Below are positions 3,932-63,790 of a stretch of 64,000 nt of DNA, piece after piece. Position numbers and translations under genes: made by a program. The notes beneath the pieces are model-generated. The model searched no databases. It saw nothing but the letters and a program-made list of their open reading frames with translations, and had not been told where the DNA came from. Numbering within the stretch: the stretch's first letter is position 1; each line of letters begins with the position of its first letter. The stretch comes from Nereocystis luetkeana (lineage: Eukaryota; Sar; Phaeophyceae; Laminariales; Laminariaceae): assembly GCA_031213475.1 (NCBI GenBank), contig JARUPZ010000024.1, forward strand, positions 5,426,038 to 5,490,037. Direction: 5' to 3'.

Positions 3932-4368
3932 CCCCAAGCACTGAAAACTACTGGCTAACGTCGTCCGTTCCACGCACGCTCTCAACCTCTTCTCGGAACC
4001 TAGTACAAAAACGTTCATCGCAATCGCGCGTGACGAGCTCCATCGTGGTTTAGTCGCAACCCCTTTAGGGGCGGAACGCACAACACCAATCTACGCATAT
4101 CGTGTCAATAGCCCTCCTACTACATTGTTGACAAAATCCCCCGCGAAGGAAGACGACGTTTCAGGTCTTAGTACCTTGCCAAATCCTTGGAAGTAGCGCT
4201 TAGTATTGGTTCCTCAACATCGCCGACGGACGTACGTAACCCACCAGCCGCCGGTTGTGGACCGAAATTGTATGTTTTTTTTTTCTTTAATATTCGGCAA
4301 CACCATCTGGCCTGACGGCTATCCGAAGAACGCTCTTCTCTCAACTTCCTCCACCACTCCTGCCGTCA

Positions 4369-20626: not shown

Positions 20627-22417
20627 GGTGCTGGAGCAGCTGTGGAAGGATGTGTCCCGTTTCCAGCTTCGTTTCTCAGTTTTCGTTGATGTTGGAGTTT
20701 TCTTGGTTCTCGAGGCGTGATCTCAAGGGGATATATTATTTTGATTCGATTTTTGAAGGAACTGATCCCTTTCTTTTTATGAGCGCTTCTTGCCTCTGCT
20801 TCGTACTATTTCGATTTTGCCTCTGATTATACAGAAGGCGAGTAGCGCAATGCGGTCCCTTTCTATTGTACGCTGTCACAGCAGCCCTATTGTGAAGGTG
20901 CAAGTTCATTGTTGCTGACTCACTTCCTGTGCAGTACTGACTTACAGTTATTAATAGTGTAGTCCGAACCAGGTTCCGGCAATTCTGGGCTTTTCTGGGC
21001 TTTTACTCATCAAGTAGTACCACACTCGACTCGGAATACAACAGTTACAAGCAACGAACCGTAACTGCTCGAAACTGCTGTGTCGTACCAGTATACCAGT
21101 ATACTGTATCTGGTACCTGGTACCACCCACCCCCACCACACCTCTACCAGCCAAAGTGCACAGTCAGGTGGGCGCATTGTGAACTGTCGAGTTCGATCGT
21201 GGCTGCTAGCTGGGGGTGGAGGGACGGCGATGAGACGGACCATGTAGTATGATTCATTTTGGCGCAACGCTGAGGAAGGGTTGTATGCGCATGTATGTGC
21301 GAGTGTACGAGCTTGCCTGTACTATGCACGGCCGTTCACAATAAACAGACCTCCCGCCTTGGGCCCATTGGCCATTTCGCCCAACGATGTCGAACCACAA
21401 CTAACTACTGTACACTCTGCGTCACTCCATCTGGTCCGTCAAATCTCGGCGCTTTCCCGTCGTCTAGACTACGAATCTCAACAGAAACACACGTCAACGG
21501 ATGGATGCATATATAGTCTGGATGCATAGGAAGACAACACACACGCATCATCCGTACTGTATCGTCTTGAGGTATAAACATACCAGTACTGGATAAAATG
21601 CGTGTATGTTGTCTGTTTACCCAACACCACGCTGTCAGTACACCCATGCAGGATTGGTTCAAGAATACCAGGTATATCGCTACAACAACAACAGCAGAAA
21701 CTTTTCGATTGATAAAGAGAGCGACAAGCCTCGTGGTCACAACCTCCGAAGCACACAACAACATATGCCATGTATGCCTCGGAAGTAAAAGGAGACTTGC
21801 AGACTTGCAGTTACGTAGTGCTGCAGCTACAGTAACCTCCACCTGTAGCCGGTATGCTCTCCTATTTTCTACCATGTTTTTTGCGTACCGTAAGTATGTG
21901 TGCTCTCAGCGATGTGATGTGTGACGACGTGCACCAGCTGACTTTTATAGACGCGCTGCCAGTTAAGACATAGTCTTAGATTGGTATCAAGAAACTTCAA
22001 GCGCTGAGAGTCACATAGTTGAGTCAACTCATACATAAGAGAGATTCGATAGACGCAGATCAGATGGTGTTGGTGACCCCCAGGCCAACATTGTTGATTG
22101 TTCGTTGTGCTCTACAGACCGTTCTGTTGAGGAGCACAGAGTATACGAATAATCAAGACGACGTGGCGGCGCGTGTTTGCCTTCGTAGATGGTCCAAAAA
22201 CCAAACAAAAGAGTATGACCCTTGCCCTAACTGATGATCCAAACAGTTATCGGTGTCCTACATAAAAAAATGCTACGCATATCTTTCGGATACCCCTGGA
22301 TATACCCAATATATAGTTAATTGTACCGTCTACCGGTCCATGGGGCGCCTAACTATCATGACACCCCGTTCAATGCGTACGTACGTACTGGTACGTACGT
22401 ACCAAGAGATGAAAGTG
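20627..22417. other. region upstream of the mTERF gene
   Basis: No gene is recognised. The promoter of the mTERF gene should lie here, but no clear core element stands out. TACCWGGTA words occur at 21114 and 21666. Confidence 0.4.
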
Positions 22418-34300: not shown

Positions 34301-37300
34301 CACAAAAAAGGCGCGGTCCTCTTACAATCTGTGAGCCCGGATGCTTAGGTTGGTAGGCTGTTCAGGGGTTTCTCTTCCTGTTGGGATGAAGGTACGGGCG
34401 AAGACCCAACCCAACCCCTGTCCCTCACCCTAGCCCTAACCCTGCCCCTAACCCTGACCCGAAGCCGCAGCCAAAACGGGGCAAAACCGGCCATAAACGC
34501 CGCGGCTGCGCCGCGTTTTTTGCATCGAACCAGGAAATTTCTCAATTGCGGACGACGATTCCGAAGTACGGACCACAGTACGCATTCATTAAGTCAAAAG
34601 CACCCCTAAAGATCCGAGCTCACAGATTGTAAGCCCTACTTTTTTTTACAGGGGGCCATAGTAAATAGGACCGACTATTTTTATTAATTATTGTAAACAT
34701 ACCGCAATATATAGGGTTTTGTGTGTACCGTAGGTCCTATTTACCATGGTCCCCCGTACTAGAACAAACTGACGTTCCAACGGCATATATATTTGGATAG
34801 AGCTTCCTCGGCTAGAAGGGAGCCCCCCCCCGGGCAGTCAGAAGTGCTTGGACTAAATAATTACATATATACCACGCGTCGTCTCTGTACCGTACAGTAT
34901 ACCGCATGGCCCATTTCTCACCGGTGCTGTGTTTAAGTCAAAGGGTTGCCTGCAACCACAGCAAGCAGTACGTAAACGAGCATATATATATCTGCCTGTC
35001 TGTGCAAAAACCTTCCGAATAAAGAAGCCCGATATATAACCATCATCACCTGTCGTCGCTCAGCGTCTCGGACATGACCAGCTGCTGTCTGTACGTGCCG
35101 CAGATACTGTTACGTGGGGTGGGTTTCAGAAGCGGACGCGAGCGGGGAGACACAACAACAAGGAAACCTTCACAGATCAGCGTAGGCCACAGACCCCCAT
35201 TTACTTGTTTCACGATCTATCTCTGTTGTTTGTTGTAGACATTTCGGGGTATCTTCAGCCATCCTGATCCAGGGGCTTTGGACCGCCCACCTGATCCACA
35301 TCCCCTGCACGATCTATTTTTGCAACACAGCCAGTAAGTAGCAGAAGGTTGGGTTAAGGTTAGGCACCCGGCAGACCCTGTTGTGCTGCACGAGCTTCAA
35401 CGTCGATAATTCCGAAGCATTCTGCCGACAGATAGATGAAGAAAACCAAGAAACGATTCGCAAGTCAAATCATCTCTTCTTCTTGCCTGGTGGTGGGGTC
35501 TGTTTGGCACGGCCCTGTGCACGCGTGGTTGCCGAGTGAAACTCTGTACTGCTACGAGCAACTAACTGTAGTATGATGCAGCACATCACGCACACATACA
35601 CCAGGCACCTGGAAATATCACAATAACGGCAAATAAATAGTATAGGGCCTACAGCAAACAGTACTACTACTACTGCTGCTGCAGGTTACCCACAGAAGAA
35701 GAAGTAGGTAGCACCAGGGGTAGAGGTCGTGCCTTGACCGATCCAAAACCTTGTGCAACATATTAAGAACATGTAATCGTAAACGGGGACTATACAGCTG
35801 TATGTAGTAGCATCGAGCTGATCTCGTGAGTAGATGACGAGAAAAACGATTGCCGCGATAGGCTGATGGAGGACGGTTTTGCTTCACCACTCTTCCGAGA
35901 AAATGGGTGACACGTACTACTGTGCACGAGACGAATAGAATAGGGAATACCCCTAACGCTAACCCTAATGGCGCTAACCCCAACCCCAAGCCTAATCCCT
36001 GGCCAATCAGAGAAACCCTACTCCTGACCCAAATAAGCCAACCAAAGCAAATCTCGAACAAGTAAGTGTGGTACAAACTCCACATTTTAGGGCGCTCCTC
36101 AAATTACGAAGTACGACCGAACCCAAATACTTTGAAACATTTACATGCGTACCGTTATTTTTGGGTGGTTCTACAATATTTCCATTACGCCTAGTAAACA
36201 AAAGTACCTGACCCATGGGATTTGTCCGGCAGGGGTTGTTCCCTCTTTCAGTTTTTTTTTGTTCTGCAACTAACTACAGAGCTCCGCTTAACCCTTTTAG
36301 AACCGCAGTCCCGATTTGGGGACAAACTACTTGAAATTTGAGTGGATTGCCCCCAAAACGAGGCTGCAGTTCTGAAAGGGTTAAGGAAGGCTCATCAGAA
36401 AATGTAGGTGCGCCCCTGCTACCGCGGTACATTGGGCGCCCGGCAGTAACTATTTTAGGACTGCAGTTCCATTTTGGGGACACACTACTTAGATATTGAG
36501 TGGATCGCCCCCGAGCCTGCAGTCCTAAATTGGTTCAAAAACGTCAAATTTGGTGTCCAGACTCAACGTAATATATAATATACCAGGGTATATATAATAC
36601 TTCGTATACTTAGTATATATATATATTTCCCAGCGTTTGTGATCTGCAGTAGTGACTCTGTTGTTGTAGATTTTTTAGGGTGATATCCCACGGCTGAGCT
36701 ACAGCAGCAGCAGTAGCTGTTTTCTCAACCTGATTTTCTCGTTGTTTTGTGCCATTCTGTTGAGCCTTTTTTTTTCTTAACGTAACGTTTTCTGTCTGCG
36801 GGCGCCGATTGTAGGCGGCTAGACCACATGTCGTAATGGCCGGACCGATCTTGAATTCCAAGCGAAAGCTACGTGCTTGTACCTTCAAGCTACACGCCCG
36901 GAGCTACTGCCGCACAGCAGCTTGTACCTTCAAGCTACACGCCCAGAGCTACTGCCGCACATCAGCAATTCCCCACCGCATTTCGCGCAATCAATCGAGC
37001 AGCTCACCGCTGTCTCTGCAACACTCCTCCTGGTCGTTTCGTCGGAACTTTTCATTGGCTCAGGGTACAGGTCAGCTTCCACGAGTACGTAAGCATCACG
37101 GAACGTAGCCGTGGGTCGCTCGGTACAATAATGGCAGGTGTACAGGGTGCATACAACTGCTACGTGTAGCCCTATAAGGCGTGAGTTGATCGTGGGCGGT
37201 GGTGCAAGCGCGCACCCTCTCTCTCCCCTGTTTCTCGTTATTATATCGCCCCACTCTTCTTCTTGTAATTTCTTCTTCGCTGGGCAGCGGCAATTTTCGT

Positions 37301-40300
37301 CATGAAAACTCCTCCTTCGATTTTCGAACGCCACAACCAGGCGGTCTTAACCCCCTTGGAACTCCATTCCCATTTTTTTGGGGACAAACCACTCAAATTC
37401 CAAGTAATTTGCCCCCAATTGTCCCCCAAAAAAAGACGCTGCAGTCCTAAAAGGGCTAAAAGGTTTTTAGAACTGCCGTCTCGTTGTGAGGGAAACATAC
37501 TTGAAAAACCTAAAGTATTGATTGACTGGTTTTTTGTCCTTCGAAGCGGGATTGCAATTTTCTCCCACAAGTGTGAATCAGCTACTGCGGGGGGCGATGG
37601 TAAATAGGACCAGCTGTTGTTAGTAAAACTATCGAAATATATAGGGTTTTGTGTGTATTTAGGTCCTATTTACTACTCTATGTGCCCAATTGTACCACCA
37701 CCTGCTAAGGGTGTGTCATACCAACATAATGCCCTACAATAACAGACTGTCCGGCAGGTACGTATTTCCTTTCAGTTTTACTATTGCGGGGGACCATAGT
37801 AAATAGAACCACATGTTGTCGGTAAAAATAGGGAAATGTATAGGCTTCTGCGTGTACCCTAGGTCCTCTTTACTATGTTCCTTCGTAATACATGTACCAC
37901 GCATGCATGTATTCGTTTTGTTTCGTCAGGAAAACGCCTGCGGACGATCTCGTTTGTTTTCTCACTGCTTCGCGAGGGTGCGGTGAGCCCTCTCCGCGGC
38001 GTCCTCGCGGGAAAGGGAGTCCCACCCGTGGAACCAAGGTTCTCGCTTCTTCGCCACTCCGAGGCCGAAGGTTCCCAGCTCAGAGCGAACGACTGCGCGG
38101 GGGTCGCGAACCAGATGCAGGAACTTCAGTCCCGAGGCTTCGCAGCCCGGGCCGCTGATACCAACTCGCGTTCGGATCACTTTCACCACCATAGCCCTAC
38201 ATTGTGAGCATCGGTACGTTGGAGGGGGGGGGCAGCGGGGGGGAGGGGGGGGGGGGGGTGTACTCGGTAGGAGGTATGTACTCGATCACAGGCATGGAAG
38301 TAGTCGTATTAATAGTATGACCATAGACCCTTGCACCCCTACAATGCCAGGACGGAGCATGTCGGGCTTTCACCGACCAGGCAGACACGGCTCGCACCAA
38401 GCTTTGCGAAGCACCGTGAGGTGTCCGGCGAGTCATATGAAGGGTGAGCTATACCTCACTACGAACCGCTTGTGAGGCGGGCTTGCATATGTATGATAGC
38501 ACCCACGAGTTAATGTAATATACCGTGAAACAGGTAGCTACTTCCAGAGACAACATTAGGAGTACGATGTAATTACCTCTTGGATGCCTCACCATATACA
38601 CACTACGTGATAGGACCATTCCCCTTGTGCGGGAGTATAGGTTCTTCACCTCGCACGAATGCTCTAACTCAACCACCAGCTGTGACCGACCGCCAAAAAA
38701 AGAAGAGAAAATAAAAAAGCGGTACCCTGGTCGTCTAGCTCAAGTAGTGAGCGGCATGGTTTACAGTGTTGTTGCCAACCGACGCCAACCCAACCTATAT
38801 AATAGGAATGCATTCTTACGATAGAGGTAGCACATTTCCACATTTTTATTCTGAAAAAGGACGGGATTCCTTGACCCAAAAATTGTCGGAAGGACCAATC
38901 TTGAATCGAAAAATGACGTCTTCGTCTGCTTGGGCCCTTGGATTATCCATCGGGATGCAATTTGAGGTTTGCAGAAGTCAGTTTTCGGGTGACTTACTGC
39001 TAGTATGGAGCTCCTCAAGTGAGGAGCCTCAGAAAAAATAGGGTGAACCTCTATCGTAGAACGCCTCCAGGGGGGAGGAGCATGGCCTGTGCGACGTTAC
39101 CGAACGGATCGGGGTGCTGCATTATCTGTGGAGCAGGCTTTTCTCTGAACAGGTCGTATACCCTTACCTCTACGTGCCCTGCTGCAGCATAACCATCGGA
39201 GTGGGTTTTCATGTAAACGTAAGGATTCGACCACACTCGCGGGAAAATCGGATTTTGGTGAGGCCATCCCAGTCACCTCTACCTAAAGCGAGTTCGTGTG
39301 GCTTTCGGCCCACCTCCCCCCCCAAAAACAAACTAAATGGTTTGTGCAGCACAGCCCAGGCTATGTCGACAACGTCATGAGGTTGGCCGTAGCTGAGGTC
39401 TCCTTTTACGTTGCACCCTTCCGAGCTACCACGTCGGGAGTACGTAGAGCGCTCGGTAAAGCAGGAGGGCAATACAGAGGGCCTGATCCTATCGACACGG
39501 GACTGAAAAAACATGCTGTCCTTCCCGCCTGTTATATGACAATTACAATGGGCTGGGTGGTCAATCGATATTTTGCCCCTACCCACAGCTCGGTAGGTAA
39601 CACCTTCACATTTGGCGCCCGTCGAGGGCACGAGTCCGAATCTCACTTCGAACGTTGATTTTATTGAAACGCTTGCGCGTGCGTTCCTACACGTATGTCT
39701 CCCTGGTTCCCCAGCTAGCTATTGAAACAGAGCTGGTGTAGGTCAACGTACGGCCGTATACGAGTGCCGTTAGTCCCTCGAAGACCCACCGCTCAAGAGG
39801 AACCCCAAGATTTAGAAGGATTACCCTGGGGTCGGGTAATCGATCGATCGTTTGCCCAAACAGCTCAGTAGGTGACACCTTTTCACACGCCGTAGATAAC
39901 AACGCATGTGTCGGCCTCTTTGTTTGTTTGTTTGTTTGCTTGTTTGTTTGTTTGTTTGTCTGCTTGCTTGCTTTTTTGCCTCTTGCGTTTAGCATCCGCC
40001 CATGCCTAACATGAGCTTCATTGTCGATTACTCATGACCCCCCCCCCCCCCCCGGAAAACTGGCAGAAGATCAAGATGAGAACACGGTTAAGGTAGGGGC
40101 GGAGTACCCCCCCCTGTCTAAAGCTGCGAGCCGGCAGGATTTCACGGTTAAATTTATAGTCTGTAGGGTGCCGTTAAACCAACAAACTGACTAAATATTC
40201 GCCCAAGTCGGGTGTGGCGAAGTCAGCTGACAGCCAACCGACTTACCGTCTTGCGCCAGGCGAGCGAAGCGAGCCAAAGTTGCATCCCACGGCCAAGATT

Positions 40301-43300: not shown

Positions 43301-46300
43301 AAATGACTCACTAGTGGCGCTAACGACTTACTAAAAATACCGACGACTTACTAATAGTACGGGGGGCTATAGTTAATAGAACCTATGGTGTAGATAAAAG
43401 CCCATACATTTAACCTTCTTTACTATCAATATTTGGTCCTATTAATTATGGTCCCCCGTAATACTAACAACTTACTAATAGTGCTATTGGCGTACTAATA
43501 GTGCTAACAACTTTTCGTGGTAAGGTAGCACAGTAAGTACTTAATACTGTTACCAAGTAATGGTGAGAACGACTCACGAACAGCATAATAAGGCTCGTCA
43601 AGCGAAGGTCGCCACAGGGAAGCGTAGGTTCGCACCCTATCGCAAGACGTGTCTAGTGTTTACGTACGCTATCTCCACACATTTTTTCAGTGAATCATGG
43701 AGCCGCTCGCCCCGAGGGACCTAAAGACGACAGTGAAAGCCATTCTTCACCCACCCACCCACCCGTCCGTCCGTACGTTAGTGCTTACTTGCTCTTCTTG
43801 CACGTCTCCATGGCCGTGTCGTGTGCCCGAACAAGCGCGTCGACAGCGGAGGCGGCTGCTGCTCGGTGGAGTTCTCCAAGCACCGGCGATCCCGCCTTCA
43901 ACGCTCCCGCATCCCTCGCCAGTCTGTCCGTGTCTCGCAGCGTAAATTCACATCGGCATATCCTAAAATGAAATCGCCACAAAAAAAGGAAAACAAAATC
44001 AGTACAACGTATTGGTGGGGATAGGTGGGGGTGGGGTGGGAGTGAAGGGGGGGGAACGGGGGACGGCGCGGGTATTTGTTGTCATGCATGGCCGTAGTTG
44101 TGTGGCCATGTTGGCCCTCGTATTATTCCTACAATGCCGGGACGGAGCACGCCGGGTTTTCACCGACCAAGCGGACATATGTTGCTCGCACCAAGCGCGA
44201 AGTGCCATCAAGTGTTCGGCGGGTCGCATGAAGGGTGAACTTGCATCTTACTGTAAGGACCGCTTTCTGAGGCGGATATCGGCGCCTTTTGCTCCCAGAG
44301 GTATTGACAGAGAGACGAAAACCGAGAGGGGAAGCAAAGGTTGTGTTTTTTGCTTACGAAAATCGAGAACATATTTTTTGGGTGTTACGTACCCGTAGGA
44401 GATCCCATTTTCCTCGTGAATCACTACGGGCCAGATAATCCCATACATAATAATACTGGGACCACGCGGTGGCCACGTCACTAATATGATTAATTATCAC
44501 TACGAGCCAGATAATCTCGTGCCCAGTACATAAAAAAAACAATTAAACTACACGGTGGCCAGGTGACTAATCTTACTACTAACCACTATTGATACCAGCC
44601 AGACACTCTCATACATAATAATACTGGAACCACTCGGTGGCCACATGACCAATCTTAATAATACTCACTACGAGCAAGACAATCTCAGACATACGTAGTA
44701 CTACTGTGGAACCACACGGTGGCCATTTTCCACTCCCCGAATCCCGCGCTAACGCCGCTAGTCTATCTATTTTGCGTCACCCATTATTTAGGAAAAGACG
44801 GCCCGGAGACACGCGGGAGTGCTGACCCAGCTTTCATTTCTTCCTCGAGGGTACGTACAGTCTGTCAACAACTTCAAGATTTACAACAAAACCGCGCGTC
44901 GGGATTTTGTGTTTTCCTGTAAAGTTACCAACCTGTCTTTCTTAGTAACGTTGTAGTGTTATTCCGTTTGCCACCTTACAATGAATGTCAAGCGCTTTCC
45001 ATGCCAATCATGCCGTCCACATATAAAAGGGATACTGCAACTTGTTAAGGTCTTAGTAATAGTCCGTTGGGCCAAAGATAAAAGGTTAACCAATCGCCTA
45101 CCCAGTCTGAGCCTTACTACACTTTCCCCCCCTGGAACGGACCGGATACGCGGGTCGACGTGCCACGAACACGCGGTTCCAATTTTTGGGGAGATCCAGA
45201 AGTATTTTTTTAGATTCTACGACATCATGAGGCAAATCCCATTTCATCAAAAAACGTTTTCATGGTGGACGTGGCATTCAAACTCACGACCAACGACCCA
45301 TGTCCTGCCGTCGGCGCCGCAACCCATTTGGTAAGGTCTTAGTCCGTTGGGCTGCCGGTGAAAGGTTAACCAACCGCCTACGTCCGCAATCTGAGCCTTA
45401 TAAGACCTGACACTGTTGAGATCATGGGCAGCGGGACACCTTGTATCCCTGGGCAGGTCTGCCTATTGAGCCGGTACTCATTGGTACTCACATGTGTTGC
45501 TTGCTGAGAGATAGAAGAGTCACCTTATTCCTTTCGTGCACGACGGAGACTGAGACCACGCTAGTAGTCTGGTTTTCCACCTAACATACGCCTACTGAGT
45601 ACTACAAATACGATCCCAGTGCCAGCACTCAGGTAATTAATTACCGGGCTTTCAACCTCATACAAAGTAGTATCATAACACCCCACTATCGCCTCATTAT
45701 CCCGAAACCACGTACAGCAGTACATACAGCGGTAGTACCAGGTACGTACGAGCATACGTACTGTAGTATCAAGAAACAGTCATTAATATCATAGCACAGC
45801 GGTGCACACAGTAAATCTGCTTGTGTTCGAGCGAGACCAAAGCACCGCCCCCAACATATCACTGCTGCCTGTGTCGGACGCGCCCACCTTTTGCCCACTC
45901 TGCGTGGACTCATCCCACGGGCGGCGGCGGGGGGGGGGGGGGGGGGGTGCACTTGTTTTGCCTTCTTCAGAGGCAATATTGTCTGACAGGACGGAGGTGG
46001 TTGAGCTTATCAGGTGGGAGACTACCGGCTGTTATACTGCTGTTCTGTGCTGCTTGTAGTAGCATACTGTAGCATCCGGTTTAGGGCTGCAGTATGTAGC
46101 AGCGAATATGAAATGTTGGTCGGTCCGCGCGAATAAACTTAAGGCCTAAGAAGTCACCTTTTCAGCAAGATACTGCTTGCTGCTGCTCAGGTGCGAGGAG
46201 CTCAGGAAACAAGAGGCACTCTGGTCCGCCCCTGTATCGCCGTGGCCGCACAGATAGATAGGCACGCTTTGCAAACGAACGTGAGATGCATGTAGATAGC

Positions 46301-49300
46301 TCTTCCCCATCATCGCGACTACTGTATGTATGTATGTACCAAGAATGGATGTTTCGAATATCGCAGCGCACATGCAGGGCAGCACGCCTCCGTGGGAGTA
46401 CATAGCGCCTTATTCTTCGTGACGTCACGCGACTTATTCTCTCCGAGCTTTATGTATGCCACCGGAAACGCGACCAATTCGGAGGAGAACTTTGTTCGCA
46501 AATACCGACCACCACTACTTCTAGAACGCCTCTTACACTCTTAGTCACGAGGAAACAGAGTAATCAAGACCCCTCATATATATTACGAGTATATATATTC
46601 CAGTATTTGTACTGAGCATATTTCGGGACCATAGTAAATAGGACCAAATATTCTTAGCAAAAACAGAGAAAATATGTAGGTTTTTGTGTGCACCGTAGGT
46701 CCTATTAATTATGGTCCCCCGGATTACGCTCCCCCGGAATAGCCCTAAACAATATATATACTTCGTACATATATATATGCTATTAATTAGGGGGGACCAT
46801 ATCAACTAGGACCTGACGGTACATACAAAAACCTACCAGGTATATATTTAGCTTTTTTTTCTAACAATATTTCGTTCTATTTACTATGATCCCCCAAAAT
46901 AATAAAAATATTGTTTCTAGCCATTGGTTGCTCAGTTATTGAGGAGCTCCACCGGCAGGAGAGTAAAGAGGGGGAAAACACGCAACCAACCCCTACCACC
47001 ACGGGGTGAGTCTGGCACACGGGGCGAGGCTGCTTACCTATGAACGAGAGCGAAACGCTGAGTCCTCTACAAAAAGTTAACCGCCTGTGTTTACCCGCCT
47101 CGCCTATATACTTCCTGTATGCACATATATATGGAGCCACGACCGACTGCGATTCCTCATTTTTTTGTGCCTAAAAACCAGATCATCACAGTAGCGGCGC
47201 AGAGCCCGAAAACGGAAACATGTTTTCTTCGCTTACCTCTGTGCGAGAGCGAAGCACTGCTCCCCGAACAGTTCGCCGCCGGGTGTGCCCATCACCCCTC
47301 TCTTTCCACGAGATCGGCATGGCTCGTACAAGTACAGAACATCCTGCGGAACACGCACGCAAAGACGCGCAGGGCGGCGGGGAGGGGGGGGGGGGGGGGG
47401 GGGAGAGGGTGGTACCCCCTGTGCCTGCAAACAGCATTGTTTGGGTCGACAGCTAGCTGACGATTGGCCTCTCGCGTTATGACCAGATTTCCCTAGAGAA
47501 GCAATAATTTTCGATCGATCATGATGGCACTATCCACGAGCGAACACCTACTACTACGCACCCCTTCTGATCTTCGTGTCACCTTATGTATCGTGTCCTA
47601 TGAAGCAAAGTGTATTCTTGATAAACGCAAATCAAGCTACGTTCATTGGGCAAGTTCACCCCGATTCCCACCACAGCATGCAAGCACATGCGTGCAGAGC
47701 TATACTATTTTTCCCCCTTCCAAAAGGCGCAGTTTGCGCAGTCGAAGTTTCCTCAATCACCTTGGAAATATAAGTTTCGACAAAAACCCTCGACCCTACG
47801 GCTGTCGTTTTTTTTTTTTCTGTTCGATGATATATACTAGAGAATCAACTGCTGGCGCCCAGCAAAAAAAAAATCCCCATAGTAGCTGGTCTCAACATGC
47901 TGTTGTAAATAGCTTCTTCGGGGGTGCTTAACCTCTTTAGAACCGCAGTCCCGTTTTGGGGACAAAGTACTTGAAATTTGACTGATTTGTCCCCACAACG
48001 GGACTGCGGTTCTAAAAGGGTTAAGGAGGGGAGTGGTCATTTTTGGGTGGACGAGATGGAGGGATGTTGGTTGTAGTAGTCTTCATGAGCGTCACATCAG
48101 GTCTGGTTTGTCGTAGGATACTGCCGCGCTTTTGTTCTGGAGAGTTTTTCACTTTCTGTTAGTCGTTGATTAGAGCAACACTACACATTGTCGGATGGCA
48201 AGCATAATAATAATAAATAGTTAAATTCATGCTATGGTACATTCAAGACATGCATTAAAATCCACCTTTTAGGCGCACGACATGATTACACGTAAACTAC
48301 ATACCTGGTACATGCTGTACTCATTTCTTATAAAAAGTTTTTTTCCTTGGGTTTCCACCTCCATTACAAAAAACGACCCACTATTACGGGGGACCATAGT
48401 TAATAGGACCAAAAATTGTTAGTAACAATGGTTAAATATATAGGTTTTTAGGTGTACCATAGGTCCCATTAACTATGATCCCCCGTAATAAATGTTTGCG
48501 AGGACATCACTTGGGTTCTAGCTCATACCCTGGGACACTTTTGAATGCGAAGTATCTGTATCACCTATGTACATGCAGCAACATATACACCCCGAAGATC
48601 TGCGCGTGGTTCAGTAACATTTTGCTTGACAATAGGTCGGGTTATCATATGTTCTTTCTGGCTATTAATAGTACGACTTACCCAAAGGATTGTGGTAAAT
48701 TCGGATTGGTTGTGTCTATGGGATTGATCTTTAGGCTGGACGTTGTCGGGGGACAACATAGAATGATGCCAGGATATTATTTCATTTATTTGCCGTCTGA
48801 CAATGTGCGGCTCTTATATTTCCAACCGTACCATCAACATAACATTATATAGAAGGGTAACTACTGAAGAAGCCATTGACCTAAGTCAAGGAAGGTGCTG
48901 TCACTCAGACCTGAATACTTGACAAAATTACACCAATAATAACGCAGTCCCCTTAATGAATATACTGACTCGATCCCAACCGACGCTCCACCAACTAAGT
49001 CAGAAAGGGCGACATGATGTACTCCAAGCCTTACCAATCAAATCGAACCAAGTGACGAATTCGTCCAAATTGTGTTCCCCGTCCTAGAAATACCAAAGCA
49101 CACTGTCACGAGAGACCATAGCAAATAGGACCAAACATTGCTATCAATAAAAATAGGTACTACTGTAGTTATATAGGTTTTGTGTGTGTCGTAGGTCCTA
49201 TATTTACTGTGCCCCCCCGTAATAATTTATTTCTCATTACACAAAGAAAGATGCTTCGCAACTACCGGCCTACAAAATCCCCAAGCAATATTTTTTCAAA

Positions 49301-52300
49301 CTCGTTTCCTACCCCGTACGACTGCAGGTAGAATGGCCTTCTTCTATGCAACTCTTACAAATCCCTACTCGGCGTCTATGTGCCAAACCCACGTCATACA
49401 CGTTGTTATTTCATGTATACGCGTAGTGCAATACCGTGGGGTTTTCCCACCCAAGACCATCCGGTTCAATACTTTTCGGGATATAGTACCAGGGGAACAG
49501 GCTTGTCAGGAAAACATAGTCTACTTGGGAGTAGTATGGGATGATTTTTGCAGTAGTAAGAGGTACACAAGCATGAATAGAGATGAGAACACATGTAAGT
49601 GGCGTTTTCACGGGGTAATCTTAAAGTGGGTACCCCCACTGTACCAGAGGTATACAACTGTAGAAATACCGCTGGCGTTCCGTCGAAGAGGGGGCCGGGG
49701 TATTTCCCGAATTGCCCCACTCTCTTTTTCTTGATTTGCCCGTAACACATTTAACACATCTTGCTCGGTACCTGGTAGACACTCTTTTTGTCATTGTACT
49801 GGGGCTGACTGTGAATTCGTTGGCTAAAATATGCCGCCGGCTAGATATCAGTCGGCCATGTGCGTGCGTGTCATGGTTCGTTGCTTGTCATTGTGGTGGT
49901 TTGCGGACATCACATTCTCGTCTTTGAACCTGAGTGGAGTTTTCTTTTGTGGTTTCGAACCGGGTCCCCTTCTAGAACCACAGTCTCGTTTTGGGGACAA
50001 ACCACTAAAATTTCAGGTAGTTTGTCCCGAGAACGGGACTGCGATTCTAAAGGGGTTAAAACGAAACACCAAAGAAATGAAGTTGTTGGTGGTTGGCTGA
50101 ACTCGCCACCCGATTCGCCCCTTTAGGTCTGCGGTCCCGTTTTGGGGACAAATGTTGCAGCGCTACACTACGGATAAGGAAGGACGCGGCAGCCGGAAGG
50201 AAGGACGCGGCAGCCGGTTCGTCGGGGAAGTGGAGGAGGAGTTGCCTACGCTGTTACCGGGTAGGGGCCGCGAGACCCGCTGTGCGCCGACGATAGTTAT
50301 GCGTCGGGGAGCGAGGGTGTTGTAGCGCTACGGGCTCCAGAAGTCGCCCAGGAGGGCGACAGGGTATTCTGTGATGTACGTCGACTGACCTGACCAGTGA
50401 CGTATGGAGGGTGCATCGTGTAAGACAGCGATAAGGCCGTAGGAGGGCTCGCTGTCATATCGATGTAGGTATACAATGGAGTGTCCCCGGCGGGAGAGGC
50501 CATTGTCTGGGTCATGGAAACCCCGTATTGGCTGTAGTGGTCGATACGGGTGCTCTGTGGCGCTACCTACCTGGGGTTAGTCAATCCCACCAAAGTGAAG
50601 AAAGAAACAAGTCAAACCATATCCCGTTCACACACCGTGCATGAGTCTTGCTCATCACGCCCCTGTCAGTTGCCCATCACGTGCACGTCAGTTAAATCCC
50701 ACGTCGCATTCGCCGAGCAATACCAACACCCGACTCCGTGACGTTTGGCCACCTCGTGGCCAGCGAAGATTTAGGAGCGAGGTAAGGAGGAAATCCTCAT
50801 AAGGGCTCTCTCAACGAACGACAACAGCTGGCTATCGAGGTGAGACCGAGCCGATGGAGGCCCAAGAGGAGGCCAAGCTGTAACACAAACCACCTAGAAT
50901 TAGAGTGGTTTGTCCCCAGAACGGGACTGCACTCCTAAAAGGGTTAAGATGCATGCTATGACGGGGGTTCGCCAATTTCGGGGGGTCATAGTAAATAGGA
51001 ACAAATATTGCTGGTAAACTAGCGAAATATCTAGTTTTTTTGTGTGCATCGTAGGTCCTATTTAATATGGCCCCCCGTGGTAATATTTTCTGAGGCCCCT
51101 TGCTCGAGGAGCTCTACAGTACTTATCGCCCATGAATTCATTTACGAAAAGGGTGCGCTTAATCCGATAAACAATCCCATGGCCTACGAGGTCTATACAA
51201 CAAAAACAGATTGGAGAAAAAAAACAAACGATGTGTGTATGGGTGCCGCCGGTCCCAGTGACATATTCGCCAAAGAATGCCACCACTATCATCGTAGCAG
51301 GCGTTTCTACGTAGAATTATTATTAATCGTAGCCATGTCGTGTCCAGCCGAAGCATGCCTTGCTCACATACTATACTAAGTATCAGTTTAATGGTTTCGA
51401 AGATTGGAGGATACAACGCGGGCTGTCGCGCTTGAAGTGCCCTGCCCTAGAGAGAGAAATCAGCGACTTCGATTGAACCATCGTGACCGCCGGGGGTAGA
51501 CTTGTACTACAGCAGTCGTCTGTTTTCATCTTGGAAACTTCTTGTGGGCTTATGTCCGAAACCAGGTACGCTCAGCCCGCCACCGTTGGACCTTACACCT
51601 GGGTTCCCCGTTCATGGGGAAATCACCGATTCCGCTTGTACTTGCCCGTGCGTCCTGTGATTGCCAGGGTAAACTCGATTGCTTTAGCGATGCTGGCCCT
51701 GGGTTGAGCGTGTGGTCATTGAGCCCGCCCAATAGTCTCCGTATTGCATCACGGAAACCTACCGTCGAGGTCTTCCGTTCTAACCTAACAGTATTCCCCA
51801 TATCAGTATGTACCAGATATTGAGGTTTTTGATGTGTACCATCCGGAAATTTGCACCAAAGAAAGGGGCTTCATCGTCGATTACTCATCATATACACTCC
51901 CAGAAAGAAGCAATATAACTTATTTGTTTCATTGTGCTTTTTTCCGTCTGACATTTGTGCAACATGAGCTTCAACGTTCACCACTCGTAAACATTCTCCG
52001 AAAGAAGAATGTGAAAAGGGGAACGTTATCATCGTTGTTTCGGTTGTGTTGTAGCAGTGCCCTGAAATACCTTAAGATGTCACGTAAATTACCTCAGTTT
52101 AGGCAAGGGGGGCGCGTTTCTGTTGCGTGAGAAGTGTACCAGGTATCGGAGACGCGACTACTAAGGGGACGGGCGGGACGATTGTCTCGCCCCACCGATC
52201 AGTCTCCTTCGTGGCTCTATTTGGAATAAAGCGAACCTTCTTGTATCTCTTAGACCTGTCCTTCTACATCTAAGCAACGAACCCATGTCAACAGCAACGA

Positions 52301-55300
52301 GAATCTGCTCAATAGACAAACCTGGCAGGGAATACTACACGTCCCTAGGTCAGTCAACTGGCAATTATTGACATCGTCGATATTATGACTCGGGCCACGG
52401 TTTAGAGATGTGGGAGTGGGTTTCGAGGAGCATAATCGACTCGTGTTCTAGTTCATGGAACCCGGTTCTCCCCAAATTTCCCATATTTTTACAATTACCG
52501 CTTATCAGAGTGGGCTAGTGCTACGGTATTGCCTTGAAATACCTTGAAATGTCGGCAACTCCTTGAGTTTAGATATGGAGAACGTGTTTGTATTGTTCGG
52601 GGGGCGTATATAAGATGGGAGGACCGGGAGACGCGCGGGCGGGACGAATGACTCGCCCAACCGTTTGGTCTCCTTCGTGGCCTGGATTGGAATAAAGGTG
52701 TTCTTCTCCCGTCTCTAAGCAACCGACCCACGTGAGTGATGACGATAACCCGCCCGTAGGCAAACCCGGCGGATGAATATTACATGTACATTGTCCCTAT
52801 AGGAAAGTCGCCTCACGTTAGTCATCCGGCAATGTGCAGCAGGATGAGCTTTGAAGTCCAGGTCACTCGTATTAAACACCCTCCGGAAGAAGAAGAAACC
52901 CTACGGTGACAACATACGCGTTTTACTTATTACCCTGGAATGCATTCATTCATATACTTAGAATGTTGTTGGTATCATTTTTATTTTAAGGGAGGCTTTG
53001 CCGCGGCCGACGGATGCCCGCCGCTGCTCCGCGTATGCCCGTGACGGGCGATAGATGTACCTGGTACACAGGTATGCAGTAGAGAGCCAAGGCCCCGAAC
53101 CTACAGCAGCAGCATACTGCAAACCAGCTGTGCTACATATTATTCGTACTGACATGTACAGGGCACTCCACCGTAAAACACGACCCACTGTTGTACCGCA
53201 CTCAGGCTCGGTCTGTCTCATACTCGTATGTACCCCCTAACTAAATATGCCTTCCATGTTTGTGTGTTAATATTCAACAACCCCGATGCACAAACCTCAG
53301 ATATCCTGGCTTCCATCTTACACGTTGATACATGAAGAACAACTCCATGTCCAACGACCGCTCTTAAACAAGCCGCAAAGCAGTTAGGCCTTTCTTTGAA
53401 GTACGTCACTGCCATGGGAAAAATATGGAAAGTTGTGGTCCTACCTCAGCAACACAATACGGAGGGCTTGTCGACGGGTTGCCCACATCCTTCCTGCCGA
53501 AAATATTTGCTGGATACCGAAAAGAAAGGGGGGGAAAACTGCCCACAGCTGGCTCCTGCCCGACGCCGTCCGCACGGGTCACCGGGTAGGCCGTCTAGCA
53601 AACCTTCCTCGGTGCAGTCGAGGGAGGTGGACACGCTGATTGAAAAAGCGACCGAAACCGTTTACCTCTGGTTGAGGAAAAGCGATATCCGAGCACCGAT
53701 CGTTTCATCGGTATAAACACCTAATAATAGCGAAGGAAATACTGCTACAGTCAGTACGAAGCAGCAACAGTTAACTGTTAATACCACTGCAGGTACGGTA
53801 GAATAGGCCGAGGTTGCAAAAAAAGCGGCAGCACTGCCAAGGAAAGGGTTGTACGGCATTCTTTGAGGTTGGATCAATATTACGAAAAAAGCAAAAAAGT
53901 ATCAAAGTATGGCGCTGGACGGGTGGAACCGATTTAATCATTGACGTCACATGATTGTTCTCTATGTATGGGAGAAACTCAAGTAATGAATGCTACCCTT
54001 CAGGTACCAAGTCGTGACTTGCCTTCCATCACCGAGGCACACGATATGGGGGTGTTGTACCTTGATTGGACGTACCTAGCTGTCGAAGCTGGGATTTTGT
54101 GTTGGAAATAAGAACCACTCCGGGCGGAAATGTAAATACCGCTCGATCACCGCACCTAAACTGCTGTACAACCGTCCCTTTCATTTCCGTCTACGAGTAG
54201 AACCATATCTTCCCCATCACCAAGCGGTGCACTTTGTATCTCCGGCGAGCCAGGAAAAACCTCCATGCAAAATATTGGTATATTTTATATAGGATATTGA
54301 CCTCCCCCTGTAGAATACACCCCCCCCCCGTCGAATACAGAAATAAGCCAACTCTATCGACGACAGGGAGGGGGGCGTAAACATCGAGGGCTTGCGTCCA
54401 AAGAAAAATATCAACCAATGAGATCATCGGACGCAACCATTTCCGTCGCGTTTTCCCCCCCTCGTTTCAGGAGAAGTACGTCTCGTAAATCCACCCCGGG
54501 GTGTGTGTGAGATGTCGCGGGTCATGCTGTGCAATGCAATGCACAGGCAAACATCAAAACGATACGTAGCTCCGCCGAAGGTCTTGGCGGGTTGGCACAA
54601 TCAATGCTGTCGTCGTGCTCGCTGTCGATGGCGGTGAGGTGAGGTCCCTGTGGTGGCAAAACGGTCTAGGCGATCGCAGCTTCGGTTGAGTCGTGCTGGT
54701 GGTCGACGAAGAGGTGTGTCGAGCGTCGGCGAGAGAGGATGGTCAGGGAAGGGAGCGTAGGCTGAAAGAGAGGGGGAATGACAGAGATAGATAGATGCAT
54801 TCCCTCCGTGTACGGCATATAAATGACCCGACAAATGCTACAATCACTGCAAACGGTTGAAGGCTTTCAACGTATACATATACACCTGATCAACCATATG
54901 AAAGTGCGACGCGAATTGCACAAAATAGCCCACACTGTCCAGGATTCTCATCCTAGCCACCTGACCAGTGACACAACAACACAGTCGTCATGCTCACGAG
55001 TCCTAAGCGAGCAACCTGGGAATCGAAACGGTGAGATATAGCGGTTGCTCACAGTCTCAAAAACGGTGGTAGTAGTACTAATTCGTCAAAGCAATTTGGT
55101 GTAACATATCTCGCGGGTTTCATACACCCCAGACTGTTGTTGTCGACACAAACACAGCCGAAACCTTCCGTTCGAACTGGTTCTAATACATCGACCTATG
55201 ACCGAATTTACACCACTCAGTACATAGAGGGAGTTTGCGTTAAAATATTTCAAAACATTTTAGGGTTTTGAAATGGCAGCGATAAGCAGGGCGCGCACAT

Positions 55301-58300
55301 GATGAAGTCTTGGGCAGTTTGGCTTACGTCTGCGCCGACGGCGGCTGTACGAGCGCTCGACAACGCCGGGGGGGAGTCCCTCCCCGGGCCAAACCGGGGC
55401 AGGCGGGCACGGCAGCGGGAGAAGCGAAAAACACGATCTCTCGCCTACAAAAGAAACACCTCGTAGCGCGGAGAGGACTCGGAATTACAGTGCTGCGAGC
55501 ACATGCATCTGGATTTTATTATATGCCAGATGCCAGGTGCCACTCTGTCCGAAAATATAAGGATGCGTTGTACATTAATGCTCAATACACCAACGGTCTT
55601 CACATTTCATCCTAAAATATAAAGACCGCTTGTTACGTAATAATAATGTTTAATACAAGCATTTGCTTAGAATTCGGAACAGAGCGGTACAGCTTTTTTT
55701 TGTTTGTTTCGCCATCCGGCAATGGGCGGCAGAATAAAGCCTCCTTGTCGTTCACTCCCGAACGGCTACAGAGAGAAAAATAAAACTCAAAACAATGAAA
55801 CCACCTGAATCCTGTTATTACTATTGGACAGGTATGCTTGAACAGTATGATACTACTAGGTACTGCTCCCCATGCGATATCTACCTCCGGCTTTAACATC
55901 CCCCCACGGGGTTGCCTTTTCAATATTCTTATGTTATCACAGGTTTCCCTAAATTCGTTCATGAATGGGAAGACCCCCCCTCCCCTCTCGTCCCCCTCAC
56001 CCCTGCTCACCACAGTGCATTGTTAAGAAGCACCATATTTAATATGCGATACTTTAAGGATAACTTTTATTGCCACGACAAGATGAATACAAGCCTTACC
56101 TGGTAGTCTGTATGCATACTTGAAATGTACCAGGTACGCACTCCAACAAAGGCTAGACATAGCTGACGCTACCTACCTGTGGGGTGATGTTCGGCTTGAC
56201 AGGGCATCCCCCGACCATATACGCCGGGGTGTGTTCACGTGGCATCATCATGGTGCTTCGCAGTTGCAACTCGTCATTTCCTCGCGTTCTTTATATATAT
56301 ATGCTGGTAGTTCGTTTTACTTGTGTTTCTATATATTCAATAACCTTCACCTCTACTTTTTTTCAGCTCTCTGAACGATAAGCCATGGTCCCAGGGGTCT
56401 TCCCTCCTCCTCCTCTCTGGCACATTGATCGGCATGTACCAGGGACGCATAGGGCACAGCATTCCCACATTGCTCGTCGGTTTTCATCCATTCTTGCTGG
56501 CTCAAGGTCTCGCCTCTTCCGCTACGAGAAAACAGCACATACATACATAATAAAACACCTTTTTTGTTTTTGAGCACCCGCCAGGATTCGAACCCCGACC
56601 CTCTCACGCTGACACTGGCAGTATCCCAAGCCCCGGTGGTCCTCCGCATGCACCGACCGATGCGACCCCAAGCTGTACTGGAGGGACCAAACGAGGCTAT
56701 CGTGGGGATCTCCGTTTTAGCTCGCGAGTCTTTAGTCTATGTACGCGCGAGTGTCCTCCACTTAGGTTAATTCTTATCGGAGAGCGTTTTTTTCATAACT
56801 TCCAAAGTTTGGAAATAGTTGGAGATATGTATCAATATACGGAGGCACCCAAGAGGCAGTTACATAGTACTCCCATTGCTGTCTCTGGAAGTGCCTACAC
56901 CGGAAACTAAATTAACTCATTGAAGCTGTCATCCGTATGCAAGTCCGCCTCACAAGCGGTTCTTAGTAGGATGCAGCTCACCCTTCATGCGACTCGCCGG
57001 ACACCTCACGGCGCTTCGCGTCTGGTGCAAGCACTGTCTGCCTGGTCGGTGAAAACCCGACATGCTCCGTCCCGACATTGTAGGGATGCGAGGGTCTATG
57101 GTCATACGACTACGAGCCATGCATGAGATCGAGTACATCTCTCCTATCGAGTACACCCCCCCCCCCCCCCCCGCAAACAGAGATCCTGACGTTGTTATCG
57201 GATAATTTCTTATCCATAGGGCTATACTATACTTCGCATATAACACCAGTACTGCACTGCACTGCACTGCACTGCACACATAAATAACGTACGTATTTCA
57301 TGATAATTCGTCCCCCGAGGGGAGTTAGGCATATACCTTTAGCCCCACACTGGACGTAAATATAAGGACTCCCGGGTATCCACATTACCATGAAAACGGT
57401 GCTTGAATTTCCGCCCGGTCTGGTACCTCCGTTTCGGGGGCTACGTTCGCGCGGAAGAGGCGTTCTTCTGAGGCTCCCCACTCGAGGAGCTCCATATCTC
57501 ACCCGATAACTGACTTCTGCAAAAATCAAATTGCGCCCCGATGAATAATCCCATGGCCCGAAAATTTAGAAATCCGTCATTTTTTCGAAACAAGATTGGC
57601 ATTTCGACGACTTACCCTGCCATCCAGAAAACATGTTTTTCAGCGAAAATGTGCTACCTCTATCGTAGAACGCGTCGGAGCCAAAGTCATCAGTCTGGGC
57701 GGAAATGTAAGGATCGCTTGGGGGAAACTATGGCAGGTGTACGCAACGGGTGACCGCCCCCCCCCCCCCCCCCCCCGTTGCACAATGTGGACGTAAAATC
57801 ATCCTTTGTGGAGGCATTGAGCAATCAATGTAGCATACCAATAGGCGTACCGAAGTGAGAGGTATTCTCGGGACATCTGGTTGCCTGGGGTTGCTACACG
57901 TTGTTCAACATTGTCTCCACAAGGTTTTGTATACCAAATCCACGTTTTGCAGGGGGGGGGGGGTAGGGGGGGAGGGGTCCCGGCCACCTGCTTGTGTAGA
58001 CGTGATTCTTGTTTGTCTTTGGTGTCCTCACCGAAGATCACACATCTGATCTGGTGGTAGTGTTTATATTGCGACCGGCCGAGAGCCCTGCAGCACTTAC
58101 GTTATTTATTTGGTTCTGTGTCGTCGGTGGCTGGCTGTTGTCGTGCGCATCTTATTGGTTCAAAATATACACGAACGACCACAAACCGTCGCTTACATTT
58201 TCGTCCAAGTAGTGTACGCAGTGTTATATAATATACCAGGTATTACGTGTTCTCCGTAAGGTAAGGACACAGCGCAGTGTGGTAGTATTGGGAATACCCC

Positions 58301-61300
58301 GCTCCTTCCCCTGCGAGGCTGCGCGATGAAAATATCACACCAAACATTGGTACATTGGTACACGCTGCAACAGCGACCACAACTCAGCAACGCTCACCGA
58401 CTTATTGTTGCAACCTGAAAAACTGGGAGATTGAGAGGGGAGCGATCGATGCATTTGGGGCAACAACGAAGGGGGGAGCTTGTTGAGGGCTGGAGATGGA
58501 AGCATCAGCCGCTAAAAAACTTGAAATATTTTACTACTGTACCTGGTAACATCTTCTTCTACTTATTACTTATCGTTATGCCTGCCATCCGACAAAGTGC
58601 AGTGTTCTAAAAAAAAGACTATTATTACTGACAGTGAAGTTAGTTTTTGTATTTACCATCTGACCCTGAATCATGTGCAGCGCTTGTTTCAGTCATCGAC
58701 TTAACATATGTGTCCGCACTCGTACAACAGGGAATTTACAGTAGTAGTAGAATCCAATTACTTCACCCATGAAAGATGTGCTATCCTATCCATCAGGTCT
58801 GAATGCTGGACAAAATCAATCTTGCCAATAATAATGAAATAATGGGCATTTCACCAATCAATCCAATCTAGTTGTTGGGTAGAATATACTATTAAAATAT
58901 TGATAATACCCGTAGCGTTCGTTAAAGCCACTTATAAAAAATGGCATGCACGACACCTCTCTACATATTGAAACCCCTTTGTGTACACCTTCCGGTTTGT
59001 CCTCTCTCTTGTTACCCCCATTGGTTCAACCCCCTTTCTTTGTCATTGCCACATATGCTCCCCCCCCTCGCCAAACGCTACTAGCGCCTACGTAGGGTCA
59101 CAGACAGACCCGTTCTACGATAGAGGTAGCACATTTCCGCTATTTTGTTTCTGAAAGACGGGGTTCCTTGACTCCAAATCGTCGGAATGTCAATCTTGAT
59201 CTCGAAATAAAACGTTTTGTAGACTCGGGCCATGGGACTATTAGCCTCGATGCATTTTAATTTTTGCTAATAAAGTCAGCTTTCGGGTGAGGTATGGAGC
59301 TTGTACGAGGAGCCTCAGAAAAATTAGGGTTAACCTCTATCTATCGTAGAACGCCTCCACACTACTATTATTTCTCTTACAATGTACATATCGAAATAAT
59401 TCATAAGTGTCTACAGGGCGCACGCTCGAAAACAAGAAATAAATAGATATGAAATCGGCGAGATTCGACCCCCCGACCTGCCCTTGGGGACGACTGTACT
59501 ACGGCGGAGCATACGAATTAGGACCTGCGGGGTACTCACTAAAACCAATATATTTCGCTATTTTTGCTAACCCTATTTATTTGGTCCTACCAGGGTACTT
59601 ACTATGGTCCCGACTCTAGCACTGCCTGCTATAAAGAAACCACTCAGCCATAGACCACTCAGCCTGGCTGAGTGGTCTATTACGGGGGGCTGTCCATAGT
59701 AAATAGGACAAAATATTTTTTAGTAAGAATAGGGAAATATATAGGTTTTGTGTGTGTGTACCGTATGTCCTATATTAACTGCTGCGATCCCCCGCAATGG
59801 TATGTATGTAGAGGTGATTCCGCCGACCAATTACTACCCTCTATTATTACTTCAAACCCTGACCGACCTTTAGTGATGGGCTGAAGTATCCGATCGCTGC
59901 CCGAACAAAAAAGTGGTCGGACGGAAACTGAAATTGACGTGCCATGCCACTATTAATAGTACCGACTGTAGTACTGCACTGGAACACGAGAAACAGCCAT
60001 AAACGCGAAGAAGAGGGGGATAGACCCATCTTAGGCTGGAGATACAGCTAGGTGGAGAGTTCAATGGGAATGTTCTTACCATTAATTTAGACCATCTATT
60101 TTTAAGACGCTTCGGGAGATAAGACAGGTATAACATCATCAATCGGCTTGTCACGAGAAAAAAAAACTGCTTATAATTACTACAATATGGTCATCAGTAA
60201 CATATATATGTATGACCATACGTACGTGAGTATCAGAGATGAGAACCACGTGCATTGATTTGTCACCGGGTGGGTACAACCCACTCATTATTGTGTCTGA
60301 CATCCCGACAATGTATCGTAGCATAACAAGCTTTGACGCGGACCACTCTCAGAAGAAACAAATCCCGACATGAAGACGAAACACCGACGGAAACCCACTC
60401 TAGATAGAGGAAACAGGAAAGCTGTAGTCACCACTCTGGGCGTGAATATAAAGACCGCTTGATATTCTTATTAATGCTTGAAAGTTCCTTATATTCCCAC
60501 CCAGAGTGAAACTAGACTGTACACACGCAAAGTCTATGTGAATATTATCTCCCTTCTGTACCTCTACTTCCAGCGGCACACCGATCTACTGATGTACCTG
60601 GTATTACTTAACCCTTTTAGAACTTCAGTTCCGTTTTGGGGGCACACTGTTCAAATTCCAAGTAGTTCGCCCTCAATTGTCCCCAAAACGAGACTGCGGT
60701 CCTAAAAGGGGCAATGCCCTTTTACTCTACGTAGCTCCTTGAAATTGCTATTTTTTCAACACGTACGTACATGCTCCTCTACCTCGTATAATGTGAAACG
60801 TATAGCTTCCCTTGTTTTGATATAGATATTACGGGGGGCCATAGTTAATACCTGGTAGGGCCTATGGTATACATAAAAACCTACCTGGTATATATTTAAC
60901 GATTTTGACTAACAATATTTGGTCCTATTTACTATGTTGGTCCCCCGTAATTATTAAATAGTACATGCACGTACTTACTTACCGTTCCATTGTTTTTTTT
61001 TTCATGTAGAAGAAATCCACCATCTCACAGCTGTTGTTCCTATTTTTTACTATGATGGTCCCCCGTAATCGTACATGCACGTACTTACCGTTCCATTGTT
61101 TTTTTTTTTTTCATGTAGAAGACATCCACCATCATCTCACAGATGTTTGTTTCACTGTTTTTAATTTATAAATAATATAGATTCCAGGTTAACCGGCTAC
61201 AAGTTATAAGGGATCGAGACCTGAGCTCGACCTTAGTCGAGGAGAGACGCCACACCAGGCATTAAAAACTTGTCACGAAAACAACAGACATTACTGTACA

Positions 61301-61573: not shown

Positions 61574-62243
61574 CCCTATGATCCAACCCAGTGCGTAGTA
61601 GTAGGTGTCCGGGGTGTGCAGGGCGGTCCAGGGGTACCATAAGCTACGTACGAGGCCAGTAAAAACCGCAAAAAAAAGCCTGCTGCTAAAAATGATGCCG
61701 GTTGATGATGCTGTTTGATGATGCTCTCCTTTCGCGCCCTCCTTGTTGTACTCTCGTGCTTTTGTTGCAGAGTTTCGCGAGATGAACCGGGGGTGGGAGG
61801 GTGCTCGACACGAGATGACGGAACGACCTACATTGTAACAGCAAGCTAGCTGTATAGTACAAGAACCCTTCCCACGGTCAAAATGAAGAACAAACCAGTA
61901 CGAGTGCCATATATAATACCTGGTATGGGACTTCTGGAGGAAAATTCGAGAATAATTGACGCTATCTTATTTTTTTCGTACATTTTACTTGCTTTTAGAA
62001 TACCCCGCCCTCGCCTGAGTCTCGCAAAATTTAATGGGTATTAATAGTATACAACGGTGTCGGGATTTCTTGTTTCGTTTGTGTGCGACGTACCTCTCCT
62101 GGATGAACTTAAAAAACTCTCCTCCTCTGCTCCCAAGCAAGAAAGGGTTTCAACAGATAGATAGATACTGAACGAAGAGGGCGGAGATGATGATGGTGGT
62201 GGTTTATATGAGCAGTGAAGCTCAACTGCCCCGTCCCCTGATG

Positions 62244-63557: not shown

Positions 63558-63790
63558 CCTTTCGGAACTGCAGTCCCGTTTCGGGGACAAACCACAAAAT
63601 TTCGAGGTGTCAATACTACGGGGGACCATACTATACCAGTCCTACTGGTAGTAAATATTACCAAAAATACTGTGAGTCACAATAGCAAAATATATACATA
63701 CCTGGTAGGTTTGAGTGTGTACGGTAGGTCCTATTCAATATGGTCCCCCGTAATTGTTCGTCTCCGACACGGGACTGCAGTCGTCCTAAT
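63558..63790. mobile_element. family B MITE split by a family A MITE
   Basis: Left half 63558-63613 (GGAACTGCAGTCCCGTTTCG) and right half 63756-63790 (GACACGGGACTGCAGTCGTC) flank the family A copy at 63616-63753. Confidence 0.6.
63616..63753 (+). mobile_element. family A MITE nested in a family B MITE
   Basis: Ends CTACGGGGGACCATA and ATGGTCCCCCGTAA. It carries extra bases with CCTGGTA (63701-63707) and an insertion near 63630-63650 that is itself an inverted repeat (ACCAGTCCTACTGGT). Family B halves flank it. Confidence 0.7.

Follow-up and report, generated by a model that had tools for sequence, protein, structure and literature searches.

Scars left by the excision of Sleeping Beauty and Tc1/mariner transposons are described as insertions at TA in which the TA is duplicated around a short remainder (PMC7827188). 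In Sleeping Beauty, the element is first nicked 3 nt within its end, and the scar consists of the resulting 3' overhangs (PMC7827188); for mariner, the scars agree with a break located 2-3 nt within the element (PMC2642840). Both canonical Sleeping Beauty scars have been recovered from zebrafish, and one fish transmitted a scar (PMC520745). Among brown algae, 17 Mariner-Tc1 families with 11,912 copies, mostly non-autonomous, are reported from Ectocarpus (PMC12477816); the words 'footprint' and 'excision' do not occur in that paper's main text. Among the matches listed in our search of the open-access PMC literature, there was no genome-wide family of scars, and of 119 papers containing the letters of TACCAGGTA, the 20 listed look unrelated by title.

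The nonamer TACCWGGTA of Nereocystis luetkeana has the form of these footprints, that is an insertion at TA with duplication of the TA and a short remainder. Read as an excision scar, it departs from the published kind in length and in scale: the stagger given for the known systems is 2-3 nt (as described in PMC2642840 and PMC7827188), whereas 5 nt, and sometimes 6, would be needed here, and the footprints described in these sources are single ones at known donor sites, whereas 182,395 copies of the word lie in one genome without a confirmed donor.

Abundance and insertion of TACCWGGTA

We searched the genome assembly (465,085,209 bases in 1,987 contigs) and sampled three overlapping sets of genomic DNA. 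The first (about 276 kb, or 279 kb where locus L005 is included) comprises the window, which is the whole 64-kb stretch analyzed here, together with twenty stretches of 10 kb each and four loci chosen because of the word. The second (297 kb) adds six transposase loci, and the third (303 kb) adds L042 and L043, which were chosen by a related word. A few sampled loci were therefore picked for carrying the word, and the chain-neighbor count given below omits four of them. An Rfam search of the window at gathering scores returned no matches. The plastid rbcL falls within the brown algae, at 98% identity to a cluster in which Alaria esculenta is the named member. As to the assembly itself, it contains 131 rbcL matches, most of them equal-scoring and in small unplaced contigs, representing many unmerged plastid pieces, and contig C809 duplicates a stretch of C2 at 100% identity.

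A sequence-only reading of the window had listed 29 start positions of TACCWGGTA against a random expectation of about 0.5. Our scan returned the same 29, every one correctly placed, compared to a mean of 0.51 and a maximum of 3 in 100 dinucleotide shuffles and to 0.79 expected under a trinucleotide model. The excess extends genome-wide, where the word occurs about once per 2.5 kb and the reversed word has only 1,744 sites. In the sampled DNA, the copies are mostly exact. In the window, the word reads TACCAGGTA on the plus strand at 735..743, 1110..1118, 8582..8590, 19884..19892, 21666..21674, 45736..45744, 52137..52145, 56128..56136 and 58234..58242, and lies in the minus orientation, with T on the plus strand, at 8739..8747, 21114..21122, 33305..33313, 48302..48310, 49769..49777, 53058..53066, 56097..56105, 58540..58548, 60595..60603 and 61917..61925; the remaining copies are described with the paralogues and the chains.

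Comparison with paralogues reveals that the word is an insertion. In this test (303-kb set), we collapsed each word to TA and scored every paralogue for its match to the empty or the filled form. After removal of 12 of the 110 words for their simple flanks, 98 were usable, of which 83 lacked a paralogue and 15 had one. The site was mostly empty in 14 of these 15 (176 empty, 16 filled and 86 ambiguous loci), several of which lie in the family A MITE and hence are not all independent, though they occupy different places there. By contrast, control TA-N5-TA sites (n=1,108; 923 usable; 241 with a paralogue) were mostly filled in 205 cases, mostly empty in 25 and tied in 11, amounting to 3,431 filled, 116 empty and 372 ambiguous loci. 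The related word TACWGTA, mostly empty at 3 of 7 sites in the same test, gave no signal. Two looser paralogue tests were replaced because simple repeats and gapped alignments spoilt their control. The first gave an empty paralogue for 13 of 110 words and a filled one for 1, with 141 and 129 of 1,110 in the control; the second scored 8 words as empty only, 2 as filled only and 3 as both (n=98), with 38, 35 and 92 in the control (n=899).

The family A copy at 60827..60949 (plus strand) holds two words, both in the minus orientation, which the sequence-only reading had described as exact insertions of CCTGGTA relative to intact copies. They read as described, and CCTGGTA is not ancestral at either site: paralogues of the word at 60849..60857 were 41 empty, none filled and 4 ambiguous, and those of the word at 60882..60890 were 33 empty, 5 filled and 6 ambiguous. 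The TA occupied by the latter is also occupied in a second family A copy, by the word at 46834..46842 (plus strand), so that one TA carries the word in opposite orientations in two copies. Elsewhere in the window, the paralogues were 2 empty and 1 filled for the word at 19528..19536 (plus strand), and 28 empty, 1 filled and 3 ambiguous for that at 63699..63707 (minus strand). In a survey blind to the word, which collected indels of 3-25 bp between repeat copies at 643 insertion places (276-kb set), the most frequent 7-bp insertion was that of TACCWGGTA, with 7 rows at 6 places, the next 7-mer reaching 4. TACCWGGTA is thus a derived micro-insertion that turns TA into TA-CCWGG-TA, with TA duplicated on either side of the 5-bp remainder CCWGG.

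Target preference, chains and decay

Upon examination of the flanks, we found that the insertions favor a palindromic target, R-TA-Y, with a further TA 7 bp away. Reading outward from isolated words (n=64, 276-kb set), we found C or T as the first base in 80% of flanks. TA is enriched at distances 2, 4, 7 and 8, reaching 24% versus 6% at distance 7. In the 303-kb set, A or G adjoins the word in 180 of 220 flanks. A TA stands at -7 and/or +7 of 65 of 110 words, chain members included, compared to 2,051 of 17,493 other TAs.

The word itself supplies this preferred pattern, namely GG-TA with a TA 7 bp back, and words do occur in chains. The chain proposed at 8706 is real: it consists of three words in 7-bp steps (8706..8728, with T at 8706, A at 8713 and T at 8720), and a second chain joins the words at 18627 and 18634 (18627..18642, minus strand). 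In the 303-kb set, 13 of 110 words follow another at a distance of exactly 7 bp, and in the set that excludes the four word-picked loci, 12 such neighbor pairs were counted among 104 words, compared to a random expectation of about 0.04 per spacing. Eight of these pairs share their orientation and 4 do not; in the listed part of contig C1, the numbers are 5 and 3. The suggestion that newly made TA sites are used repeatedly fits both the spacing and the presence of both orientations.

Chains, a 7-bp unit and the lean of chain neighbors toward the same orientation are also what one would look for if the word had multiplied by microsatellite-like growth, by tandem duplication of the 7-bp unit or by spread within longer repeats, and one repeat family does bear TACCAGGTACCAGGGTA. 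Yet 86 of the 97 runs in the 303-kb set are single words (the rest comprise 9 pairs and 2 triplets), the flanks of the 29 window copies look diverse, and plain tandem copying alone would yield a single orientation and no opposite pairs, such that we regard growth of this kind as very unlikely.

The mutated forms of the word point at free decay. Among its one-step neighbors in the 297-kb set, which contains 102 exact words versus 3.3 expected, transitions are in excess (60 versus 25.7 expected) and transversions are not (50 versus 47.2). Our arithmetic from these neighbors gives a change of about 3-4% per base, and the pattern is as expected of neutral, fairly young insertions. These data bear on the view that TACCWGGTA is a selected motif, for example a palindrome bound by a protein, as its high copy number and mostly exact copies might suggest. 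An excess confined to transitions, insertion of copies inside MITEs and chains at an exact 7-bp spacing all argue against selection, which we regard as very unlikely.

Excision as the probable origin of the word and the search for its source

We consider it likely that TACCWGGTA is what remains after excision of a Tc1/mariner-type cut-and-paste transposon that targets TA and is cut with a 5-nt stagger. Such an element would enter at a TA, duplicate it and later excise. Cuts about 5 nt inside each end would leave the 3' overhang CCAGG on both broken ends, and these overhangs could pair save for a central A:A, which repair would convert into CCAGG or CCTGG, turning TA into TA-CCWGG-TA. An occasional 6-nt cut would retain the next base of the end, a G, and yield TA-CCAGGG-TA. 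The new TA, lying 7 bp from the old one and beside a G, would match the element's own target preference, such that scars would draw further insertions and form chains. The middle W is no evidence by itself, since any palindrome of odd length displays both letters once the two strands are considered. What favors excision is the TA-centered palindromic target, together with a second palindrome tied to a MITE and a transposase with a predicted Mos1 fold, both described below. The product is very uniform for end-joining, which speaks against a scar.

A 6-bp variant of the word bears on the end of such an element. The form TACCAGGGTA occurs 8 times in the 303-kb set versus 1.05 expected, and all three copies that could be tested in paralogues are insertions. 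TACCTGGGTA, by contrast, occurs once versus 1.05 expected. Genome-wide, TACCAGGGTA has 11,422 sites compared to 409 for its reversed control, an upper limit since a single repeat family, to which 7 of 20 fetched loci belong, adds to the count, and TACCTGGGTA has 1,578 compared to 362 for its reversed control and to an expectation of about 1,600 scaled from the 303-kb set. This asymmetry argues against slippage, as slippage in C-runs and G-runs would yield both forms. The oriented variant thus suggests element ends of the form CCAGGG, with G as the sixth base. The window contains two copies, one in a TA-rich target (36581..36590, plus strand) and one in a family A copy (59588..59597, plus strand) whose sole scored paralogue is empty. 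At G000:C1:1304145-1308353, TACCAGGGTA recurs mostly at 528-bp steps in a satellite-like array. Of the blunt fill-in form TACCAGGCCTGGTA, there are only 10 sites genome-wide; pairing of the overhangs would therefore have to be the rule.

The uniformity of the product and the lack of a visible source element could be accommodated by an enzyme acting independently of any transposon, which would make a staggered cut at TA and add a fixed 7-nt piece (CCAGG plus TA) through templated or programmed repair. We met no comparable system in this analysis, the oriented 6-bp variant is in keeping with a staggered cut at an element end, and transposition accounts for the target preference and for the MITE-tied second word with no need of a new enzyme. 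We therefore judge such an enzyme improbable and return to excision.

The sequence-only reading had envisaged full elements bounded by TA-CCAGG and CCTGG-TA. None with both ends was found in any of the following searches; the proposal of a Tc1/mariner scar with a five-base stagger is supported as a mechanism that we infer. The 87 half-sites TACCWGG lacking the second TA in about 276 kb share no common extension by eye, except for the 6-bp variants and for two similar copies in L014. The latter carry the half-site TACCAGGTGYCGGGCA at 4058 and 4568, thus at a distance of 510 bp; their orientation is the same and their flanks are similar, and they represent a local repeat. Facing pairs of half-sites gave 9 rows, every one composed of full words. 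A search for terminal inverted repeats (TIRs) with TA on both sides recovered family A and others, and no repeated family with CCAGG ends. Genome-wide, TIR pairs TACCAGGG...CCCTGGTA spaced 117-177 bp apart numbered 21, compared to 337 for the reversed pattern, a control inflated by its resemblance to family A ends. No source element appeared in the 20 stretches examined beside chained half-sites, of which 1,661 were counted. In these 20, all 4 C-type sites result from a change of TA to CA, and a single repeat family accounts for 7 of the 16 G-type sites.

Searches from the side of the transposase gave a single lead. No source element was seen at the 6 of 28 DDE_1 loci inspected, and three further DDE_1 stretches were set aside as a duplicated contig and an inverted duplication. 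A Transposase_1 search returned no matches, its control being equally silent. A DDE_3 search returned none at the default cut-off and, when relaxed, 30 weak matches together with real families. Three further DDE_3 matches do not look like the source, as the similarity near two of them (L073 and L075) stops at a TTACGG-type end and that near the third (L074) at a variant of such an end. A transposase of the Tc1/mariner superfamily is encoded in the genome, and the lead is L070 (G000:C17:1212600-1216600), an intact DDE_3 transposase gene of 599 amino acids. Its D, D, E residues (D211, D383 and E497) are intact, the latter two being invariant in 9 sequences, and its predicted structure, modeled at a mean pLDDT of 64.7, has the RNase H-like fold of Mos1. 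The second D and the E are 113 residues apart, within the 111-123 found among the 9 sequences compared and far above the usual Tc1/mariner spacing of about 34-41 residues.

An end of the form TA-CCAGGGTGATTCAG (TA-CCAGGG) lies 1.2 kb downstream of the L070 gene. This end shows the predicted sixth base G, and its flank, CGTTGTA, fits the target at the 96.6th percentile of TA flanks. The intact catalytic residues and the modeled Mos1 fold speak for L070 as the source, and relatives of the protein occur in other brown algae, including Ectocarpus, which like this genome carries brown-algal Mariner-Tc1 families. Against L070 stand the single copy seen, the lack of a convincing left end in the 3 kb upstream and a 110-bp tandem repeat, found elsewhere too, between gene and end. 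The tandem unit, which is rich in ACCGCC, is common to L070 (3015-3290) and L003 (2600-2872), two otherwise different places. An L070 element as the source would be one case within the excision explanation, whose probability it shares in part; taken alone we find it doubtful, and we treat L070 as a lead only.

A second palindrome and the record left by the presumed scars

A second dispersed palindromic insertion, TATTAATA, appears to be a scar from the resident TTACGGGG MITE. It occurs 37 times with diverse flanks in the 276-kb set and 93,112 times genome-wide, compared to 10,689 for the reversed word. In the paralogue test, 39 of 45 copies qualified, and paralogues existed for 9. The site was mostly empty in 7 of these, and the 2 filled copies match one another (87 empty, 5 filled and 12 ambiguous loci). 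In the control (n=274), 47 sites were mostly empty and 194 mostly filled. Within the window, this apparent second scar lies at 20949..20956, 38307..38314 (paralogues 24 empty, none filled), 48663..48670, 59951..59958 and 62039..62046. Its flanks (n=90) have C at -1 in 52, A at -2 in 46 and T at -3 in 44 cases, and the family A MITE ends TATTACGGGG (n=40) have C at -1 in 22, A at -2 in 19 and T at -3 in 21. The two thus have the flank preference TAC-TA in common, by which a short palindromic insertion is linked, through the target, to a mariner-type TA element in the same genome. In a separate place in the window (14892-15208), TAGATCATCTA forms a cluster that is probably a local repeat (10 copies in the 276-kb set; 0.07 expected in the 297-kb set).

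Family A (TIR TTACGGGGG) offers a comparison for the source of TACCWGGTA. It likewise targets TA, and the TA-TTAA-TA insertion shares its flank preference. By contrast with the source of the word, family A copies are still abundant, with about 65-70 alignments over the middle of the MITE in the 276-kb set, and family A has different ends, the different target TAC-TA and no 5-bp scar. A transposase family with a TTACGG-type end is also present. This DDE_3 gene family reaches equal top scores in ten listed places of the genome, and two loci, L067 (G000:C19) and L068 (C7), are 99.4% identical over 2.9 kb and share the end ...CCTCCGTAA-TA; a search for the other end of their element did not find it. 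This family and its relatives have 111-123 residues between the second D and the E.

A fuller history, in which a mariner-type element with a 5-nt cut left more than 180,000 scars, is itself nearly absent and had its scars seed further scars, is one we offer tentatively, as somewhat more apt to be wrong than right. Excision scars are normally studied singly at a known donor site. Here, past cut-and-paste transposition could be tallied across a genome, as in a fossil record, even with the element gone. If the scar reading is true, each word would record one excision; target preference could be read from the flanks, age from the mutations and the outcome of repair from the variants, and TATTAATA suggests that other elements may be read in the same way. 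The scars would far outnumber the element copies seen so far and would provide a steady supply of frame-breaking 7-bp insertions that may in turn create new targets. The transposon would then have shaped this genome mainly through its remnants.
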